Assembly: GCA_002373595.1 (NCBI GenBank)
Contig: DFKT01000023.1
Coordinates: 1 to 10,578 of the forward strand
Direction of reading: 5' to 3'
DNA from: Lachnospiraceae bacterium UBA3638
GTDB lineage: Bacteria > Bacillota > Clostridia > Lachnospirales > Lachnospiraceae
Length of the DNA: 10,578 nucleotides
The position numbers and the translations under genes were made by a program. Below, in pieces: positions 1 to 7,896 of this stretch. The notes under the pieces were generated by a model that had not been told where the DNA came from, made no database searches, and was given only the letters and a program-made list of their open reading frames with translations. Positions within the stretch are counted from its first letter, which is position 1, and each line of letters opens with the position of its first letter.

Positions 1-146
1 GCACGATAAAGGAGCTTATCCTTTCCGAGGATGTGCTCCTGTCCAACGACCTCATCTATAGTGCGGGGTCTCATTCTCGCGGCCAGGGGTGATTCCTTTT
101 CCCTCTTCTCCTGCGAGGCATATTCAAAAAGGTTTAACTGATCCAT
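1..146 (-). CDS. rarA: RarA/MgsA AAA+ ATPase, N-terminal fragment (cut by window edge)
   Basis: Reading the minus strand from the ATG at 146-144 gives 48 complete codons with no stop before the window edge. The start of the protein has the RarA hallmark: PLAARMRPRTIDEVVGQEHI at residues 20-39, then LGKDKLLYRA. RarA (MgsA, Mgs1/WRNIP1 family) is a clamp-loader-like AAA+ ATPase that acts at stalled replication forks. In family members this segment precedes the Walker A motif, which would lie just outside the window. The start ATG shares one base with the stop of the upstream Mur ligase gene (TGATG, 148-144). There is no clear Shine-Dalgarno sequence, so translation is probably coupled to the ligase. 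What is seen is only the N-terminal fragment; the gene is probably whole beyond the edge. The identity rests on recognising a conserved motif. Confidence 0.85.
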   Translation of the reverse strand, partial: MDQLNLFEYASQEKREKESPLAARMRPRTIDEVVGQEHILGKDKLLYR

Positions 147-1462
147 CAGGACTGAGTATCCCTTCTTACCAGCTGTGCAAATACATCTCCGCGCTCTTCG
201 AAATTCTTGAAGTCGCCGTACGAAGCGGCTGCGGGCGAGAGCACTGCGCCCATTCCTTTGGGTGTTACGCGTCTGGCAGCTTCGACTGCCTGTCTTAAGT
301 CTATGGTCGGATAGACATTGGGAAGTGCTCCCTCGTCTCTAATCTCCTCGTAGATCCTGCGTCCGGTAGCATACATGAGGACGAAGTTAAGATCCTGTCT
401 CGATCTCATGAAGTTCTCAAGTACGGCATAGGATATACCTCTGTCCATACCTCCGACGATGAGAGTCTTCGCGCCGGGTATGCTTCCTGCTGCGGACATG
501 GTAGCTTCGGGTATCGTGGAAATCGAATCATCATACCAGAATATGCCGTTATGCTCTCCGAGGGGCTGCATGCGGTGCGGCAGAGCATCGAAACTCTCCA
601 TCTCCTTGACGACCTTCTCAGGATCGCATCCGTAATTCTCCGTAGCTATCTTATAAACGAAATATGCATTGTATCTGTTGTGTACACCATAGAGCCTGAG
701 CTGCATGTCCTTGAAAGGACCTCCGGCTTTCTCCATATCCTCGTGTGTGAGGATCTGCTTATTCGAAACGCTCTCTATAGCGGGAACATTCTCTCCCACA
801 TAGGCATAGTCATCTTCCGACTGGCATGTGATGATATGGCTCTTCGCGCGGAAATAATTCTCCACGGTCCCGTAGTAGTCGAGATGCTCTTCGTAGAGAT
901 TTAAAAATACCGCTATATGGGGTGACCACTTGGAGAAATTAAGCTGATGACAGCTCATCTCGAATACGACTATGCTGTTCTCCTGATCCTGCTTGCTAAG
1001 CTCAGCATACGAATCCAGACAGGGGATGCCTATATTTCCTACCAGGTATACATTCTTGTCCGTGCACTTCCGAAGGACATGTGCGAGCATGGAAGCCGTG
1101 GTACTCTTACCCTTGGTACCCGTGACTCCTATGCAGCACCCGCTAAACTCCGAGAGGAACATCTCCGTCTGCGATGTGAGCTTCGCCGTGACGCGGTCAT
1201 ATCTGGCCATATTCTCGGCGAACTTTTTCTCCTCATACTCGGAGGGCCGGCCGGGTATCATCTCCGGTGCACGCCATGCTATACCGGGGCTCTTGACTAT
1301 GATGTCATACGGGGTATCATCAAGCTCCGCCGGAGTGCCCTGAAACAGGTCGATCCAGGCAGGTTTGCAGAAAGCGCGAAGGAAGCTTTCGGTAGACTGT
1401 CCCTCACGTCCGTATCCCCATATGAGAACCTTTTTGTTCTTTACTGTTTCCTTGATAGACAT
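146..1462 (-). CDS. murD2: Mur ligase of the MurD2 type: probable UDP-MurNAc-L-alanine--L-glutamate ligase
   Basis: This is a 438-residue cytoplasmic ATP-dependent Mur ligase with the MurD architecture. It has an N-terminal Rossmann-like domain (VLIWGYGREG at 12-21) and a P-loop GTKGKSTT at 115-122. EMSCHQL at 168-174 stands where MurD has ELSSFQL. NLYEEHLDYYGTVENYFRAK at 188-207 ends in the Lys expected to be carbamylated, and GVHNRYNA lies at 259-266. The C-terminal domain has SPAAASYGDFKNFEERGD at 409-426. Canonical MurD has NDSKATN; here the segment is DDSISTIP (311-318), so the conserved Lys becomes Ile. The GGDGK motif is GGMDRG (337-342), so the Lys that contacts D-Glu in E. coli MurD aligns with Arg341. 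These differences, with murL about 1.8 kb away, favour MurD2, which adds L-Glu rather than D-Glu to UDP-MurNAc-L-Ala. An atypical D-Glu-using MurD remains possible. An in-frame stop shortly upstream fixes the ATG, although no good Shine-Dalgarno precedes it. Confidence 0.75.
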   Translation of the reverse strand: MSIKETVKNKKVLIWGYGREGQSTESFLRAFCKPAWIDLFQGTPAELDDTPYDIIVKSPGIAWRAPEMIPGRPSEYEEKKFAENMARYDRVTAKLTSQTEMFLSEFSGCCIGVTGTKGKSTTASMLAHVLRKCTDKNVYLVGNIGIPCLDSYAELSKQDQENSIVVFEMSCHQLNFSKWSPHIAVFLNLYEEHLDYYGTVENYFRAKSHIITCQSEDDYAYVGENVPAIESVSNKQILTHEDMEKAGGPFKDMQLRLYGVHNRYNAYFVYKIATENYGCDPEKVVKEMESFDALPHRMQPLGEHNGIFWYDDSISTIPEATMSAAGSIPGAKTLIVGGMDRGISYAVLENFMRSRQDLNFVLMYATGRRIYEEIRDEGALPNVYPTIDLRQAVEAARRVTPKGMGAVLSPAAASYGDFKNFEERGDVFAQLVRRDTQS

Positions 1463-1471
1463 AGCATGATC

Positions 1472-1500
1472 ATTTTAGCATTTTTTCCATAAAAATGAAA
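1472..1500 (-). promoter_or_regulatory. Possible extended -10 promoter of murD2, close to a leaderless start
   Basis: On the minus strand TGCTAAAAT (1480-1472) matches an extended -10 element, TGnTATAAT. A poor -35 (TTTCAT at 1500-1495, 17-base spacer) lies upstream. Only nine bases separate the -10 hexamer from the murD2 ATG, so transcription would begin within about 0-3 bases of the start codon. That agrees with the absence of a Shine-Dalgarno sequence, but the match is in an AT-rich stretch and could be chance. Confidence 0.35.
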
Positions 1501-1512
1501 GAAAAATCCTTT

Positions 1513-1541
1513 TTGCAAAGGGCGCACATATGTTGTACAAT
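1513..1541 (+). promoter_or_regulatory. Sigma-A-type promoter for the amidase pair
   Basis: TTGCAA at 1513-1518 and TACAAT at 1536-1541 are separated by exactly 17 bases. They match the -35 and -10 consensus at four and five of six positions. Transcription would start near 1548, leaving a leader of about 45 bases before the amidase ATG at 1593. No riboswitch or obvious operator is visible in the leader. Divergent murD2 lies on the other side of the same 130-base gap. Confidence 0.6.
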
Positions 1542-1592
1542 ACCTACTAACCGTTGTTTGCTTTATTTCATTTGTTTCATAAGGGGTACACA

Positions 1593-2576
1593 ATGAAAAA
1601 ACTGAGCATATCAATCTGTTTAATTCTGATCGCACTCTCTGCGGTCCTCTTTAGACCGATAAATGCAAAGGCCACAGGATCCGACTTTTCCGCTATATTC
1701 GATGCGGATTATTATCTCACGAGATATCCGGACATCGCTGCTGCAAGCGGAGGAAATAAGGATGTCGCAAGAGTGCATTTCTTAAATGCCGGAATGCGCG
1801 AGGGCAGACAGGGGTGCGCATCTTTTGATGTCAGATATTACAAGGCAGCCAATCCCGATCTCCGGGCAATATTCGGAGAAAACCTCGAGAGCTACTATCT
1901 GCACTATATGACCTTCGGAAAGAATGAAGGTCGCGCAGGATCATCGGGCGACGGATCGTATCCCGTACTCACCGCTTCATCCAATCAGATTCAAGTATCA
2001 GTGCCTTCCGACGGAACCGGTTTTCTCGCAGGCAGAACAGTCATCCTCGATCCCGGACACGGCGGCGCCGATCCCGGATGCATCAGAAACGGCGTATTCG
2101 AGAAGAATATCAACTATCCTGTAGCGCTTAAAGTAAAGGCTCTCCTCGAAGCTAACGGCGCAACAGTCATAATGACCAGATCCGACGATTCTTTCGTATC
2201 ACTCGAGTCGAGATGGACTCTTGCCAACGCTCATCCCGAAGCGATATTTGTCAGCATACATGTAAATGCGATCTCGGGATATCCCGGCATCAGTGGCATG
2301 AACGCATACTGCGACAGCAGGAACAATCCATACAGCAACGCCCTTCGCTTATCGCTTCTTAACGGCGCTACAGCTTCGACAGGCGCCGGGAACAGGGGCG
2401 GAGATCCCAATGCGACCATCAAAGTCGTGCATTATTCATATATCCCCGCTGCTCTGATAGAGATCGGATTCCTCTCCTCCACTCAGGAATTCACTCTCCT
2501 CATCACAGACGATTATCAGAATAAAGTTGCCGCAGGTATCACTGCCGGCATCACGGATTTCTATAACAATTACTAA
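1593..2576 (+). CDS. Secreted N-acetylmuramoyl-L-alanine amidase (Amidase_3) with two N-terminal repeats
   Basis: This 327-residue exported zinc amidase should cleave the MurNAc-L-Ala bond of peptidoglycan. The start at 1593 is chosen because AAGGGG (1581-1586) sits six bases upstream and the protein then opens with a classic signal peptide. That peptide has a basic MKK, a hydrophobic core to about residue 20, and likely cleavage after AKA at 25-27. Two related repeats follow, at residues 36-74 and 78-116, each of the form FD-x-x-YY...PD...G-x-x-EGR. A Ser/Gly-rich linker then leads to the Amidase_3 domain (about 148-325). Zinc ligands are expected at His156 (DPGHGG), Glu170 (FEKNIN) and His223 (SIHVNA), with catalytic Glu290 (ALIEIGF), so the enzyme looks intact. 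The N-terminal repeats probably bind the wall or another surface partner; this is inference. The gene is followed 15 bases later by a membrane protein gene in the same direction. Confidence 0.88.
   Translation: MKKLSISICLILIALSAVLFRPINAKATGSDFSAIFDADYYLTRYPDIAAASGGNKDVARVHFLNAGMREGRQGCASFDVRYYKAANPDLRAIFGENLESYYLHYMTFGKNEGRAGSSGDGSYPVLTASSNQIQVSVPSDGTGFLAGRTVILDPGHGGADPGCIRNGVFEKNINYPVALKVKALLEANGATVIMTRSDDSFVSLESRWTLANAHPEAIFVSIHVNAISGYPGISGMNAYCDSRNNPYSNALRLSLLNGATASTGAGNRGGDPNATIKVVHYSYIPAALIEIGFLSSTQEFTLLITDDYQNKVAAGITAGITDFYNNY
1698..1940 (+). repeat. Two tandem protein-level repeats (FD..YY...PD...GxxEGR) in the amidase
   Basis: Residues 36-74 (1698-1814) and 78-116 (1824-1940) of the amidase align as two copies of a roughly 39-residue unit. 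Each has FDxxYY or FDxRYY, then YPDI or NPDL, then a histidine-containing helix, then GMREGR or GKNEGR. The similarity is at protein level and the DNA copies have diverged. Such units occur at the N-terminus of clostridial cell-surface hydrolases; their ligand is not known to me. Confidence 0.65.
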
Positions 2577-2591
2577 TACCCGGAGAAAGAA

Positions 2592-3233
2592 ATGAACAGG
2601 ATATTCAGCGCAGAAACCGCTTCGTCTGCCATCAGGCTTTTCCCCGCTCTGATCATCGAAGCTGTGCTGCTTAAGTTGTGGCTATCGGATGTATTTTTCA
2701 AACTAAGCATAAAGGTGGACGAGGATGAGCATGTAGTAAACATCCCTCCCATCCCCGAGGATATAAGAGAAAAAATGACCGCCGAGAGGCCGGGATCGCA
2801 TGAATGCCCGGATTTCGAGAAGTTTGTCCGGCTCCTCTCATCCTTTAAGTGGGCTCTTCTTTTCTGCATACCCACCGCTCTTCTCTTTTTCCTGGATGCA
2901 ACGCAGGATATACCGGGACTCGTCTGTCTCTTTGTTTTCGCGGCGCTGATACTTATATCCTGCACGATGACACTCGCAGAATACTCCCGCATAAGCAGGA
3001 AAAAAGTGATGGTACTCGATGCGGTGCATTACAATTCATTCTCAAAAGAAGGCGCAGTAAAGAACGCAGATTATGTCATAATCTTTAATCCTGTGACTTA
3101 TTCTTTTACTCCCGGTCTCGTGGAAAAAAAGTCCTTCGTGCCCTCGGGCAAGGATTTCTCACCCTGTAAGGTACTCGGATATGAAGATGGCGGAAGGATC
3201 CGCATCATCGGATGGTTTAAGAAAAACTCTTAA
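2592..3233 (+). CDS. Unrecognised 213-residue membrane protein downstream of the amidase
   Basis: I do not recognise this family. A clear ribosome binding site (CGGAGAAAG, 2581-2589) stands just before the ATG, and the amidase stop is only 15 bases upstream, so the two genes are very probably co-transcribed. The hydrophobicity pattern suggests three membrane segments: about 16-37, 86-101 and 108-128. Between the first and second is a charged, Pro-rich loop (KVDEDEHVVNIPPIPEDIRE at 41-60). The last 80 residues are soluble, basic and rich in beta-type residues (YVIIFNPVTYSF at 161-172, GGRIRIIGWFKK at 200-211). There is no signal peptidase site or known catalytic motif. The context allows a role in export, localisation or control of the amidase, but that is only guilt by association. 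The 3' end overlaps murL by 17 bases in convergent orientation. Confidence 0.75.
   Translation: MNRIFSAETASSAIRLFPALIIEAVLLKLWLSDVFFKLSIKVDEDEHVVNIPPIPEDIREKMTAERPGSHECPDFEKFVRLLSSFKWALLFCIPTALLFFLDATQDIPGLVCLFVFAALILISCTMTLAEYSRISRKKVMVLDAVHYNSFSKEGAVKNADYVIIFNPVTYSFTPGLVEKKSFVPSGKDFSPCKVLGYEDGGRIRIIGWFKKNS
3217..3233. other. Convergent gene overlap whose inverted repeat contains both stop codons
   Basis: The 17 bases shared by the plus-strand membrane protein gene and minus-strand murL read TTAAGA, a five-base loop, then TCTTAA. This is a perfect 6-base inverted repeat. The outer triplets are the TAA stop codons of the two genes, one on each strand. The stem is AT-rich and lacks a usable T-tract, so it is unlikely to be a strong terminator by itself. 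Confidence 0.7.
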
Positions 3234-4689
3234 GAAAAGAATCCAGACCTTCTCTTACTCTGTCAATTATCTCATCCGGAACCCCGTTCTCATCGTTCCA
3301 GCTGTGTAAAATACAATTAAGAGCAGAGCTTTCTGTTTGGTTTACATAATCTATGTATCTTTCGGTGAGTAAACTCTTCCCGCCGTGCGAAACATAATAT
3401 GAAAGTGATGCCTGAACCTCCGATCTCGTTCCGACACACTCGAATGGTTTATTCTCGTCTATTCCGGTAAGTTCACGGAAATCCTTATCTAATGACTCTT
3501 TGTCAAGCAGCTTCTCTCCGAAGATATTCAGTATTTCTGCGTCATTCAGGAAGGGCAAGAGTATTATATTGACAAAAAGACACTTAGGGCAATCGCAGCA
3601 CCATATGCCCTCTTTGCTGCCCCTGTTGCAGCTCCTGAAAGCCTTGTGATATGCGGTATATCCGGAGAAAAGGGCTGCGATCTGGATCTCGGCAAGGGGT
3701 CTTAAGAAACTGAAGTAGTGAATATCGGAATCGGTGAGATCCGAGATATACTCCCGGAAGTCCCTCTCGAATTCAAAGCTCTTGGAGTATTGATGGTTTA
3801 CATAAGATCCTTTGACTGTGGTCTCATTTGCGCTGTTTTCGTTGGAGAGAGCGATGTATTTCCTGCCGGAAAGATAAGCCGAAATAACGGCCGAAAATGC
3901 GAGTACGGCGGAGAACGGAATGTGTCCGTTCAGGTATCCAAGCGAATTGAGTTCTATGATCTGCTTATCGAGGATCCTCTTCGCAGTATATGCGCCCGAC
4001 TTGTGATCACATACATCTATGACATTTCTCGTGGTCTCATTGCCGTTTACGACATAGGTGACGATATCCTCTCCTTTAAGGAGCTCGAGACTCACGACGG
4101 AGTCCTTACCGCCGCCTACGGGTACGAGGAAGCCTTGGTACGAGCGAGGATCGTGGAGGGGTAAGTTGCAATCCCCGGCCATTCCGTTCGCGCTGTGCGA
4201 GTCCGCATGGCCGTCGGCCGCATTCTCATCTCCCGCCGTCCCATCTGCAAATGTCAGGAGTTCATCCTCCGTCACATCATCTATTCCGTTCAGATACAGG
4301 AATTCTCCGAGTCCGTCATGGAAGAGATGCTTCCAGAATTTAAGCTGCTTATCAGTGAATTTTCCCGCTTTTATTTCGAATTCTTCGGGGCATGCGGTCT
4401 TGTAATAGCTGATCGCTTCCACCATACCGAGAGACAGGATGAGCCTGCGGAGAATAGGATCGCTGTCCGCATTATCCCCTCTTCCCCAGAGCACTGCTTC
4501 ATCTTCGCCGGGCTTTTTGCCATATACATGAGAATAGGGGAACTCCCACTTGGATACGAACTTCCGGAGTCCCTCTATCTCAAATCTGTATGACACATAG
4601 AGCACACCCTTCTCGGTATGTACGTCACATCCTTCGTAGATGAATCTCTTATGCTTTTTCCTTAATTCTTCAAATACATTTTTTGACAT
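3217..4689 (-). CDS. murL: MurL: UDP-MurNAc-L-Ala-L-glutamate epimerase (PP-loop ATP-dependent enzyme)
   Basis: This 490-residue cytoplasmic protein matches the MurL family as I know it. MurL inverts the terminal L-Glu of UDP-MurNAc-L-Ala-L-Glu to D-Glu, consuming ATP to AMP and PPi. An N-terminal domain (about 1-145) has FFHDGLGE-like features around 122-130 (LFHDGLGEF). An Asp/Ala/Gly-rich insert lies at 148-176. A PP-loop PVGGGKDS follows at 190-197, which is the nucleotide pyrophosphatase signature. Then come ALSNENSANE at 280-289, SFLRPLAE at 327-334 and a cysteine cluster: Cys354, Cys364, Cys365, Cys367 and Cys370 (WCCDCPKC). The PP-loop fits carboxylate activation by adenylylation. The ATG is preceded by purine-rich AGAAGAGAAGAA, 31 bases after the upstream membrane protein gene, suggesting it ends the clpB-side operon. 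The alternative is another PP-loop ATPase (7-cyano-7-deazaguanine or tRNA-modification type), but the SNENSANE block and nearby murD2 favour MurL. Confidence 0.8.
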   Translation of the reverse strand: MSKNVFEELRKKHKRFIYEGCDVHTEKGVLYVSYRFEIEGLRKFVSKWEFPYSHVYGKKPGEDEAVLWGRGDNADSDPILRRLILSLGMVEAISYYKTACPEEFEIKAGKFTDKQLKFWKHLFHDGLGEFLYLNGIDDVTEDELLTFADGTAGDENAADGHADSHSANGMAGDCNLPLHDPRSYQGFLVPVGGGKDSVVSLELLKGEDIVTYVVNGNETTRNVIDVCDHKSGAYTAKRILDKQIIELNSLGYLNGHIPFSAVLAFSAVISAYLSGRKYIALSNENSANETTVKGSYVNHQYSKSFEFERDFREYISDLTDSDIHYFSFLRPLAEIQIAALFSGYTAYHKAFRSCNRGSKEGIWCCDCPKCLFVNIILLPFLNDAEILNIFGEKLLDKESLDKDFRELTGIDENKPFECVGTRSEVQASLSYYVSHGGKSLLTERYIDYVNQTESSALNCILHSWNDENGVPDEIIDRVREGLDSFLKSFS

Positions 4690-4720: not shown

Positions 4721-6211
4721 TTACTCTGATAAAATTACCTGTTCCTTATCATAATACTCGGCGCAAGCTTTATTAAACCAATTATCAGGATCAGTACTGA
4801 AATCGGCATAATATACCATTTCCGTATACTGATCCAGCGCGTCAAAAGTCACGATAGAAACATTTTTATCATTTAAGACAGTAAGCCTGTCTTTCCATTG
4901 TTTGCCATAGTCCTGCGCATATCCCTTTGCAAGCCATACTCCTGCTCTATAGCTCGAACTATGTTTTAGATCACGGATCCCAAAAACACAAAATGCGGCT
5001 AAAACAAAGACTACAAATATATACATTTTACTCTTTATCAGAAATCCCAAAAAACGGTCATTTCCCTCACCGGTTCCTTTTTTTGCCACATAATACCCAC
5101 ACCAATAAATCACATTAAGCAAGATGATCGTAATGAAATTATAAAAGTAAATATCCGCCATCCTTCCACCACGTATGCCACCTTCAATGTAGAAATTTGA
5201 AACAACCTCGGAAGCATATATCAAAAATGATACCACCGAAAACACTCCCGGCAGTCTAAAATACTTCTTCAGATTACCATTTCTGTCTATACATGCTATG
5301 ACCATAGGAATGACAGCGATCACAAGAAATAATAGTTTTAAATCCGTAAAAATCAAAACAGCCTTGGCAGAGTGTACGATTGAATCAACAATGGCCTCCA
5401 AAGGTCCTATTTTGACCTCCCCGTATTCGCCTGTTAGTCTTGCCGCGTTACGTCCCCCATATATACTTAGAAAAACACAAAACAAAAAAACAAACGTAAC
5501 AGGCAATGTCTTTACAAGTTTTTTTCTATCTGTAAGAGCCAAAACAAATGTAAACAAAAGCAGGAAACTAACACCTATGAGAGAGGTTCCAAAATTATTG
5601 CCACCAATAAGGATTGCTAACAACACACAAACAAAGTATCTCAAAGCGGCAGTTACTCTATTCTTGCTATCCGAATTGATCACGTTAAAAAGTAAAACAA
5701 GAAAAATCAGAAATAACGAGTTTATAACTGTATAATTTACTGCGCCAACATACCAGAAAAAGCTTTCCGTCGGATACGGGACGCAAAGTATCTTGATCAT
5801 AACGAATCCGGATACAGTGATCAATGTATAAATCTTATTCTTCAATATTGAATTAAAGAATATGTAATCACACAACACAATGGCGCACAGAACAAAAAAA
5901 GGAACTATGTGGTATAGTTTCTCACTCCCCCACGCTGATGGGACGATACAGCCGAAAAACGCCGCCGAGAAACGTGACTCTCCAAGAATATAATATTCCT
6001 TTACCCCGCTGAATATTGCTTTAAAGCATCCGACAATCCCGGATTTCTGAGCAACCGCCCGGTGAAGAAACAATCCCAGTGTCCAATCATCCGCTGTGGG
6101 ATAATCATAAAATCCCAGGATCATAAGAGGGATCAACACTATTACTAAAGCAAATATACAACCTAGCGCTATTGCTTTAAGTTTTTTCTCTTCATTTTTC
6201 TCTGCAGGCAT
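4721..6211 (-). CDS. Polytopic membrane protein, DUF6056-like (GT-C type glycosyltransferase fold suspected)
   Basis: A 496-residue integral membrane protein with roughly ten or more hydrophobic segments (for example 13-34, 101-120, 127-143, 160-177, 190-204, 209-226, 236-250, 292-306, 355-374, 396-411). It ends in a soluble tail of about 85 residues. Residues 36-43 read DYPTADDW, and an acidic pair in the first external loop is typical of GT-C sugar transferases that use polyprenyl-linked donors. ESRF (78-81), FFWYVGAVNY (151-160) and GGRMADIYFY (348-357) also resemble DUF6056 proteins. The substrate is unknown; a surface polysaccharide or wall glycan is a guess. The ATG at 6211 forms TGATG with the upstream stop, with AGGAA (6225-6221) nine bases ahead. 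A TTG at 6214, one codon earlier, is also possible. The base composition is much more AT-rich than clpB or murL. Confidence 0.7.
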   Translation of the reverse strand: MPAEKNEEKKLKAIALGCIFALVIVLIPLMILGFYDYPTADDWTLGLFLHRAVAQKSGIVGCFKAIFSGVKEYYILGESRFSAAFFGCIVPSAWGSEKLYHIVPFFVLCAIVLCDYIFFNSILKNKIYTLITVSGFVMIKILCVPYPTESFFWYVGAVNYTVINSLFLIFLVLLFNVINSDSKNRVTAALRYFVCVLLAILIGGNNFGTSLIGVSFLLLFTFVLALTDRKKLVKTLPVTFVFLFCVFLSIYGGRNAARLTGEYGEVKIGPLEAIVDSIVHSAKAVLIFTDLKLLFLVIAVIPMVIACIDRNGNLKKYFRLPGVFSVVSFLIYASEVVSNFYIEGGIRGGRMADIYFYNFITIILLNVIYWCGYYVAKKGTGEGNDRFLGFLIKSKMYIFVVFVLAAFCVFGIRDLKHSSSYRAGVWLAKGYAQDYGKQWKDRLTVLNDKNVSIVTFDALDQYTEMVYYADFSTDPDNWFNKACAEYYDKEQVILSE

Positions 6212-7896
6212 CAATAGTATTTCCTGTCCAAATTAACAAGAATAAAATCATCAAACTCAGTAATATAACCATCCTCGAAGGCAGGAGGAAGATCATTATT
6301 CCAACCATATTCCCGAGCCTTCTCTATCACTTCCCTGTCATCAGTCGTATGGAACTCGTCTATCCCGTGCATCCTTAAGAACTCTATTATCTGACCGTTT
6401 GTGTGATTAAATGCGTCACACCCCCACCTCAAAATCGATATTTGCGGTGTTTCCATAAAGCAGTAACCAAGAGGGTTGTAGTACTTTTCTTTCCAATGCA
6501 CATCTATTGGATCCGTCACCGAACACAAAATTCTGAATCTACCGGAATCAAACGGAATAATGATATTCCTAATAACACTTTTCGGAACATCGTATGCCCC
6601 AACAAATATCACCGGCTTCGATGTATCATATCCGTTATTAAGATCATCAGCAATATTATAGATTCCTTCTCTTGCATCAACGTACTTTTCATAATCAACA
6701 TAAAACCATCTGTTTATATCGACACATTGAGCCAATACCAACAGTGTCATAAAACCGCACAAGATTACATTTGCCTTTTTCGGTAATCTGCTAACCATTA
6801 TAGATAAAATCAGCATAGCAAATGCAACGGTTACAAGGATATACTGCGCGGATCTATATTTTGTAACCGTTCCTTCCACCTCAGCCATAAATGCCGGTAG
6901 TCCGAACATCACAAAAATACATAATATCGGATAGATGGTCCTTTTCTTTCCTGATATGTATAAGGCAAAAACAAGAATTGTCAGTCTGGAAAATGCCAAG
7001 ATTGTGATTGGAAGATAGAACAGCGCATTCAGATAGTACATCGAAATAAACCTTTTTAGCGTCATTCCAAATTCCGAAGCAGAAGAAAGATTATCTCCAA
7101 AAACATGCCTGTATAATACGTCATACGAAGCAAAGCTGTCTGCATTATATAAACATTTCACAAGATTCAGAATCAACGCTCTTGCAGCGATTGACAGCAC
7201 TATTTCTCCCGTTCCGACAAATAACCATAGGATAAAACCTCGATTGCGTGCTTCCCTGCTGCCTTCTTCGCAAAGTATCTTAAATATAAAGAGGGTGATT
7301 GCTCCCAGGACATACACCAACATAAAAGACTCATAACATCCGGTAGCCACCGTCAGGGCTGTTATCGCACAGACGAAGTCCTTAATCTTTCCTTTTGCCG
7401 AATCGTTCGAAGAGGAACATACAAGCCTATCAGAATGGTAAAGAGCAATTGCCACCAGCGCGTATCCCATGCAAATTCCATTGTGAAGCTGATATATGTA
7501 TACTTCACTTATGATCGGACAGGTCACAAATATCGCCGCTATCAGTCCAAAGACATATCCCGGCAGAACATATTTATTTCCGATCTTACTTTTCCATAGA
7601 GCACACCACAGTGTAGCAGCCAAAGCCAAGATCACTACACCTAAAAAGTCCGTAATGATCGGTGATGCCTTAGACAATGCGCCAAATAACAATTTGTTAA
7701 TAAGAAAAACCGTCCATCTCCCTACATATGGAGCAAGTCCGTCATCAAAATAGAGTTTTACGGCAGTGTCATCCATTCCTATTCCGATATGAAACCACTC
7801 ATATCCATACGCCGCCACCGAGGCCAGGCATAGAATGATTAGGTAAATCTTATTTTTTATAAGGTCTGCAACTTGTCTGTATATGGATTTGTTCAT
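6211..7896 (-). CDS. GtrII-like glucosyltransferase-domain membrane protein
   Basis: A 561-residue protein with about ten or eleven membrane segments between residues 14 and 392, followed by a soluble C-terminal domain of about 170 residues (393-561), probably outside the membrane. The N-terminal loop has GIGMDDTAVKLYF (38-50) with the acidic pair Asp42-Asp43, then APYVGRW (55-61). That layout is like GtrII-type glucosyltransferases, which move glucose from an undecaprenyl carrier onto surface glycans. EVYIYQLHNG (131-140) and CYESF (187-191) are further conserved-looking loop motifs. The gene starts 28 bases after the clpB stop with only a weak ribosome binding site and overlaps the next gene by TGATG, so it is probably the second gene of the clpB transcript. 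The acceptor and sugar are unknown. The family call is from pattern memory and the membrane topology is estimated by eye. Confidence 0.7.
   Translation of the reverse strand: MNKSIYRQVADLIKNKIYLIILCLASVAAYGYEWFHIGIGMDDTAVKLYFDDGLAPYVGRWTVFLINKLLFGALSKASPIITDFLGVVILALAATLWCALWKSKIGNKYVLPGYVFGLIAAIFVTCPIISEVYIYQLHNGICMGYALVAIALYHSDRLVCSSSNDSAKGKIKDFVCAITALTVATGCYESFMLVYVLGAITLFIFKILCEEGSREARNRGFILWLFVGTGEIVLSIAARALILNLVKCLYNADSFASYDVLYRHVFGDNLSSASEFGMTLKRFISMYYLNALFYLPITILAFSRLTILVFALYISGKKRTIYPILCIFVMFGLPAFMAEVEGTVTKYRSAQYILVTVAFAMLILSIMVSRLPKKANVILCGFMTLLVLAQCVDINRWFYVDYEKYVDAREGIYNIADDLNNGYDTSKPVIFVGAYDVPKSVIRNIIIPFDSGRFRILCSVTDPIDVHWKEKYYNPLGYCFMETPQISILRWGCDAFNHTNGQIIEFLRMHGIDEFHTTDDREVIEKAREYGWNNDLPPAFEDGYITEFDDFILVNLDRKYY

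Follow-up and report, generated by a model that had tools for sequence, protein, structure and literature searches.

A MurD2-MurL gene pair predicted to provide a racemase-independent D-glutamate branch of peptidoglycan synthesis in Lachnospiraceae

We analysed contig DFKT01000023.1 (10,578 nt, hereafter the window) of Lachnospiraceae bacterium UBA3638 (GCA_002373595.1), which encodes a MurD-type ligase and a MurL-like protein. In order, the window carries the ligase gene (minus strand), an Amidase_3 gene and a 213-aa open reading frame (ORF; both plus strand), and then the MurL-like gene, a DUF6056 gene, a second ORF without an assigned family and a ClpB gene (all minus strand). The first-pass annotation of this DNA had placed the MurD-type and MurL ORFs about 1.8 kb apart, and its coordinates were exact: the two genes lie on the same strand with 1,754 bp between them, and two genes of the opposite strand occupy the gap. 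The MurL start codon is the ATG at 4689, and a purine-rich stretch lies before it. Very probably, this gene pair is a racemase-independent D-glutamate branch of peptidoglycan synthesis. The case is built on gene content, linkage, residues, phylogeny and a predicted fold, and we infer the enzyme reactions from those of Xanthomonas oryzae.

146..1462, minus strand: MurD2-type ligase gene (438 aa), predicted UDP-MurNAc-L-Ala--L-glutamate ligase, from TIGR01087 (248.6 bits, cut-off 211.95), residues and tree
3217..4689, minus strand: MurL-like gene (490 aa), from MurL model NF041275 (residues 13-479, 241.9 bits, E 9.6e-72; one match in its own genome) and fold model

The window MurD passed the murD model TIGR01087. 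Pfam detected its Mur ligase middle domain only, and no bacterial MurD2 model was among its NCBIfam matches. Like canonical MurD, it belongs to the Mur ligase family and has equivalents of the core catalytic residues H183, K198, D317, S318 and T321. Its active-site motifs had been described as non-canonical, which we confirmed: they read GTKGKST, EEH, DSIST and GGMDRG, whereas in 30 of 30 canonical MurDs the first motif has Asn, the second and third contain DH and DSK, and the fourth has Lys for Arg. These 30 proteins come from the same family and order but not from the genus, MurI-positive genomes contributed 29 of them, and the window MurD is 23-29% identical to them. We compared the specificity positions with those of 77 MurL-linked MurDs drawn from loci L008-L087. 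The published E. coli MurD numbering used below is the Met-containing numbering minus one.

1112..1114, minus strand: MurD2 K117, equivalent to E. coli Asn113; K in 77/77 MurL-linked and N in 30/30 canonical MurDs
887..889, minus strand: MurD2 E192, equivalent to E. coli D182 and X. oryzae E197 by alignment (role of E197 from PMC8788868)
521..523, minus strand: MurD2 I314, equivalent to E. coli K319; I in 77/77 MurL-linked and K in 30/30 canonical MurDs
440..442, minus strand: MurD2 R341, equivalent to E. coli K348 and X. oryzae R358; R in 77/77 MurL-linked and K in 30/30 canonical MurDs
218..226, minus strand: MurD2 A413-S414-Y415, equivalent to E. coli A414-S415-L416 (X. oryzae P433, F435) by alignment

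At the D182 position, the MurL-linked MurDs have E in 38 of 77 and D in 39 of 77, and the canonical ones have D in 30 of 30. K, I and R at the N113, K319 and K348 positions recur in every one of the 119 further proteins among the best 120 of nearly 8000 database matches to the window MurD. According to the part of PMC8788868 consulted, here and throughout, four positions set X. oryzae MurD2 (E197, R358, P433 and F435) apart from E. coli MurD (D182, K348, A414 and L416); the E197D/R358K double mutant shifts the X. oryzae enzyme to D-Glu, P433A and F435L leave stereospecificity unchanged, and E. coli MurD K319T accepts L-Glu. The window MurD shares E and R with X. oryzae at both specificity positions. 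An X. sacchari protein that is annotated murD and adjoins an annotated murL, called MurD2 here, has E, R, P, F, I and K at the D182, K348, A414, L416, K319 and N113 positions, and the window MurD shares its K and I at the last two sites.

Arg at K348 was rejected as a sole MurD2 marker because S. mutans MurD also has Arg there (PMC8788868), so that Arg alone is not diagnostic. Ile at K319 was rejected likewise, as it also occurs in a third type of MurD described below. Thus the whole residue set, not a single residue, carries the argument, and by alignment the predicted specificity residues of the window MurD match those of MurD2. In a maximum-likelihood tree of 58 sequences picked from those in hand, 42 MurL-linked MurDs, including those of the window and X. 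sacchari, separated from 16 canonical MurDs (15 from the order plus E. coli) with support of 100/99 and in all 200 bootstrap trees. Since X. sacchari and E. coli form long branches, the tree favours a single MurD2 lineage without proving it.

The second protein contains every element of the MurL signature named in the first-pass annotation, namely PVGGGKDS, SNENSANE and the Cys cluster from C354 to C370.

4099..4122, minus strand: MurL PP-loop PVGGGKDS, residues 190-197, aligning with QueC SGGQDS
3823..3846, minus strand: MurL SNENSANE motif, residues 282-289, by motif alignment
3781..3798, minus strand: MurL NHQYSK motif, residues 298-303, by motif alignment
3580..3630, minus strand: MurL Cys cluster C354-x9-C364-x2-C367-x2-C370, QueC-like putative zinc site

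Among 122 MurLs, GGG, D and S of the PP-loop and C354, C364 and C370 are found in all 122, and the PP-loop K and C367 each in 121; L022, L082, L151, L153 and L160-L162 are incomplete in some motif columns. No Pfam family, the QueC family PF06508 included, matched the window MurL at E <= 0.001. Its 120 listed homologues (best 120 of nearly 8000) carry the precomputed Pfam labels PF26298 and PF26299. Thirteen of them have a name from their source: twelve are a 'hypothetical protein' (seven from Lachnospiraceae and one from Clostridium in NCBI, four in JGI), and the thirteenth, the fusion P0198, is named as MurD.

A model of MurL built with 59 picked sequences (pLDDT 88.8, pTM 0.90) matched a chain of the QatB-QatC complex and QueC, and MurL is thus predicted to have a QueC-like fold. 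Its GGGKDS and C(x)9CxxCxxC variants both align with E. coli QueC, at a score of 35.3 compared with a maximum of 25.1 in 60 shuffles. Compared with the QueC-family PP-loop enzymes QueC, QatC and Cap9, the window MurL has G rather than S as the first PP-loop residue and a Cys spacing of x9 rather than x8 (C-x8-C-x2-C-x2-C in QueC), and substrate and outcome differ, the outcome being epimerisation in MurL. Searching PDB sequences with MurL returned no match up to E 10. An anti-phage QatC function was rejected for MurL on the basis that PADLOC gave no match and that the gene is linked to MurD.

Next, we considered sources of D-Glu. The first-pass annotation had called for searches for murI, a D-amino-acid transaminase gene (dat) and a second, canonical murD. 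MurI (TIGR00067) and the transaminase (TIGR01121) were scored as present when above cut-off. MurI was present in none of the 31 genomes of the genus, compared with 42 of 47 other relatives, and the window's own genome (G000) gave no match to the MurI model, not even a weak one. The transaminase was present in none of the 78 relatives, with scores of 29-39 bits in the genus and 147-232 bits in nine genomes outside it. MurD was above cut-off in 28 of the 31 genus genomes (not in G011, G019 and G020); among the matches listed, which reach down to about 98 bits, each of the 28 had one, MurD2-like and scoring 231-270 bits, and no second MurD, canonical or other, was found. MurL was found in 26 of the 31. 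As free D-Glu and MurI would not be needed by a MurD2-MurL route, MurI would be dispensable, and it is MurI that is missing from the genus. Of the refuting conditions set in the first-pass annotation, none of those open to computation held for the organism or its genus, and the proposal that its stem peptide is made through MurD2 and MurL is thereby supported.

G000 consists of 1.94 Mb in 112 contigs and is an estimated 82% complete, a weakness that makes the argument rest on the genus. MurI and a canonical murD might have been lost in its assembly gaps, with the window genes being accessory, and six MurL-positive genomes of other lineages do have a second MurD. But MurI was also absent (above cut-off) from the 98% and 99% complete genus genomes G012 and G027. 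With none of the 31 genus genomes above cut-off and no second MurD among the matches listed there, we rejected an assembly gap as the cause of MurI absence and consider this explanation highly improbable. G027 and Lachnospiraceae bacterium AC2028 have identical MurL proteins, and the AC2028 record is not labelled as a metagenome-assembled genome, which makes it probable that a cultured strain exists within the genus.

Furthermore, MurL and MurI excluded each other in every sample. Among the 78 relatives, 28 had MurL, 42 had MurI, none had both and 8 had neither (Fisher p 2.5e-14); the corresponding numbers were 12 (in 11 genera), 126, 0 and 12 for 150 genomes of the family (p 1.6e-11) and 13 (in 10 genera), 243, 0 and 35 for 291 genomes of the class (p 1.5e-11), p values that ignore relatedness and come from partly overlapping samples, with G000 present in each. 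We also examined 16 named MurL-positive genomes, comprising AC2028, MA2020, KH1T2, eight Pseudobutyrivibrio, a record labelled Butyrivibrio fibrisolvens 16/4 and four Bacteroidales assemblies; MurI was above cut-off in none of the 16, and 10 had weak matches. Separately, the 12 family genomes with neither MurI above cut-off nor MurL include G388, G389, G394, G433, G436, G438 and G478, and several are 95-100% complete. There is therefore probably another D-Glu route somewhere.

Linkage between the two genes was strong. In 77 of 80 MurL loci (best 80 of 160), a MurD lies downstream of MurL on the same strand, within 600 bp in 73 and at 2.7-2.8 kb in four, which are AC2028 and three near relatives; in the remaining three (L018, L023, L081) the sequence ends 0.2 to 2.8 kb after MurL, with no MurD in that span. 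By eye, the gap in the AC2028 relatives is filled by genes other than those of the window, so the separations look independent. We also found fused MurL-MurD proteins: P0198 (840 aa), L011 (an 859-aa frame) and G101 (a 1,019-aa frame; the genome is a single contig and belongs to another family). The distances of MurL and MurD2 covary (r 0.92, 40 pairs, 0/2000 permutations), as shared ancestry alone would also yield.

The fate of the canonical murD could be followed in one pair of genomes. The MurI-positive G044 has the order penicillin-binding protein (PBP), mraY, murD and ftsW-type gene, and the MurL-positive Pseudobutyrivibrio xylanivorans DSM 14809 (G506) has rsmH, a short ORF, PBP, mraY and ftsW-type gene, the last two lying too close together to accommodate a murD; the ftsW/spoVE matches (309-318 bits) are somewhat below cut-offs. 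In the window's genus this comparison is uninformative because mraY is divergent there: it scored 85-95 bits in four genus genomes, and 85-96 bits with the MurI-positive G033 included, against a cut-off of 192 (L184-L187, L192). The mraY of G000 (L192:4865-5863) adjoins a greA-like gene, and no other dcw gene was found beside it.

Another reading is that MurD2-MurL serves the stem peptide only conditionally, as an additional route alongside another MurD. All 37 further MurL-positive genome entries (drawn from the class sample, the family sample and the 16 named genomes; G496, AC2028 and G027 are one, and further duplicates are possible) had a MurD above cut-off, and 6 had a second one, which counts against our reading. 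In G465 and G458 (L195, L225, L226), which gave no MurI match and speak for the conditional route, the second MurD is canonical by motif (the K319 position was not read in G458) and lies beside an mraY-like ORF in what by eye is a dcw-like cluster. That of G310, G258, G106 and G138 (L196-L199) is the third type, with Ile at the K319 position and the motifs GSDGKT, NHLD and DSIASSP or DSIGSSP. MurI was above cut-off in none of the six, and the state of G465 and G458 is possibly transitional or a dual route. The module can thus coexist with another MurD, and our claim of a sole route is confined to the genus of the window. Among the matches listed for that genus, no MurD other than the MurL-type one was found, and it should therefore be the main enzyme there, so for the window we give the conditional route very little credence. 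Beyond Clostridia, the Bacteroidales assemblies L076, L080, L082, L083, L085 and L086 carry MurL and a MurL-linked MurD. MurI was above cut-off in none of the four Bacteroidales assemblies checked, and four Bacteroidales MurDs form one clade among Clostridia in the tree, which suggests transfer between phyla.

Several further observations count against a racemase-independent branch. Weak racemase-family matches (24-36 bits) occurred in 16 of the 31 genus genomes; such sub-cut-off matches are also seen in MurL-positive genomes, within the genus (not all 16 have MurL) and in G481 and G175. MurL was not found in G008, G011, G017, G020 and G025, and G008, G017 and G025 have a MurD2-scoring ligase all the same. 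Pseudobutyrivibrio and others keep D at the D182 position (the 39 of 77 above), and the single mutant E197D altered X. oryzae MurD2 specificity (PMC8788868); the specificity of these enzymes is therefore less certain than that of the window, which has E. The window has A and Y at the P433 and F435 positions, although the unchanged stereospecificity of P433A and F435L is why we do not hold identity there to be family-defining. For MurL, Foldseek alone gave nothing at E <= 0.001 with the model, and the probability in a QueC profile comparison was only 37%. The best model of the window MurD is TIGR01087, the D-Glu ligase model, and the MurL score against NF041275 is far under the Xanthomonadales cut-off of 700 bits. 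None of the 291 class or 150 family genomes reached that cut-off, and the score indicates a distant MurL, not a Xanthomonadales-type one.

It could be argued from the TIGR01087 match, the weak racemase matches and the 12 family genomes with neither gene that the window MurD is an ordinary divergent D-Glu ligase, that MurL has some other role and that D-Glu is supplied by the rumen medium or by a racemase not recognised as such. We consider this improbable: G000 lacks even a weak MurI-model match, MurL and MurI are mutually exclusive in all three samples, MurL is linked or fused to a MurD type that groups with X. sacchari MurD2, and E192 and R341 correspond to the residue pair published for L-Glu (PMC8788868).

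The MurD2 and MurL reactions are known for X. oryzae, Micromonospora and Salinispora, and an adenylate intermediate was proposed for X. oryzae MurL by the authors (PMC8788868). By analogy, we infer that the window enzymes act as those of X. oryzae do, with the PP-loop domain responsible for adenylate formation. The QueC-like PP-loop domain of MurL would adenylate the alpha-carboxylate of the L-Glu residue with release of PPi, which would acidify the alpha-proton; proton exchange would then give the D form, and hydrolysis would yield the product and AMP. The predicted fold thereby gives MurL a concrete mechanistic hypothesis. We think it likely that MurL is a QueC/QatC-fold adenylating enzyme sharing its ATP-pyrophosphatase core with QueC (acting on a tRNA base) and with QatC and Cap9 (anti-phage, protein-modifying), that carboxylate adenylation near a zinc-Cys motif makes a reversible epimerisation one-way, and that in Clostridia the MurL-MurD2 module spread, replacing MurI and canonical MurD.

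As in X. oryzae (XOO_1320, XOO_1319), Micromonospora and Salinispora, MurL and a MurD-type gene lie near each other, and neither MurI nor the transaminase is present above cut-off in the genus. Unlike in Xanthomonas, the window genes are split by opposite-strand genes, identity to X. sacchari is about 29% (MurL) and 32% (MurD2), and fused proteins exist among the homologues. From canonical MurD with MurI the system differs by the lack of MurI, the changed Asn113, D182, K319 and K348 positions and a separate tree branch. One review places MurL in Gammaproteobacteria, Alphaproteobacteria and rare actinobacteria (PMC8788868). In the parts of two reviews consulted (one being PMC8788868), both describe MurL as without known conserved domains, and neither names Clostridia or Bacteroidales in its distribution. 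The first-pass annotation had considered the pathway notable in a Gram-positive-type lineage; Gram-positive carriers are not new, since Micromonospora and Salinispora are known, but relative to these parts of the reviews Clostridia are new, as are Bacteroidales. In the open-licence PubMed Central literature we found no paper reporting MurL in Lachnospiraceae or tying it to QueC, and in a term look-up the word MurL was absent from PMC12502697 and PMC8142540. Together, the sequence comparisons indicate that a known pathway occurs in a new lineage, here and there across Clostridia and also in Bacteroidales, and they offer a new structural lead for MurL.

D-Glu at stem-peptide position 2 is generally regarded as nearly universal, and MurI is being pursued as a target for antibiotics. 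If our reading is true, Pseudobutyrivibrio, the strain labelled Butyrivibrio fibrisolvens 16/4, other gut and rumen Lachnospiraceae and some Bacteroidales build position-2 D-Glu without MurI. A MurI drug would then spare such bacteria, and a MurD2 or MurL drug against Xanthomonas or Stenotrophomonas could hit commensals. The pathway, called limited to relatively few genera (PMC8788868), would therefore be less narrow than that source suggests.

Two further genes lie between MurL and MurD2, and we regard them as neighbours outside the pathway.

1593..2576, plus strand: Amidase_3 N-acetylmuramoyl-L-alanine amidase (PF01520, E 1.8e-43)
2592..3233, plus strand: 213-aa ORF, with neither an NCBIfam nor a Pfam match

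The amidase start was set at the internal ATG at 1593; the ORF itself opens at 1554. By eye, the amidase carries FDxxYY repeats. A protein with FDxxYYxxxYPD repeats lies in the MurL-MurD2 interval of the window, where it also has an amidase domain, and another in that of AC2028 (L020:11524-12600), although the genes are different. Rfam and tRNA scans yielded nothing useful, and a promoter scan (14 sites compared with a shuffle mean of 7.5) was not used. MurL homologues also occur on three Pseudonocardia plasmids; in the one inspected, P. alni plasmid NZ_CP052772 (L167:5800-7200), there was no annotated MurD neighbour. Between MurL and ClpB, positions 4721-7896 of the window hold two adjacent low-GC genes (about 37-42%), one DUF6056 and the other without a family, a pair that was perhaps laterally acquired.

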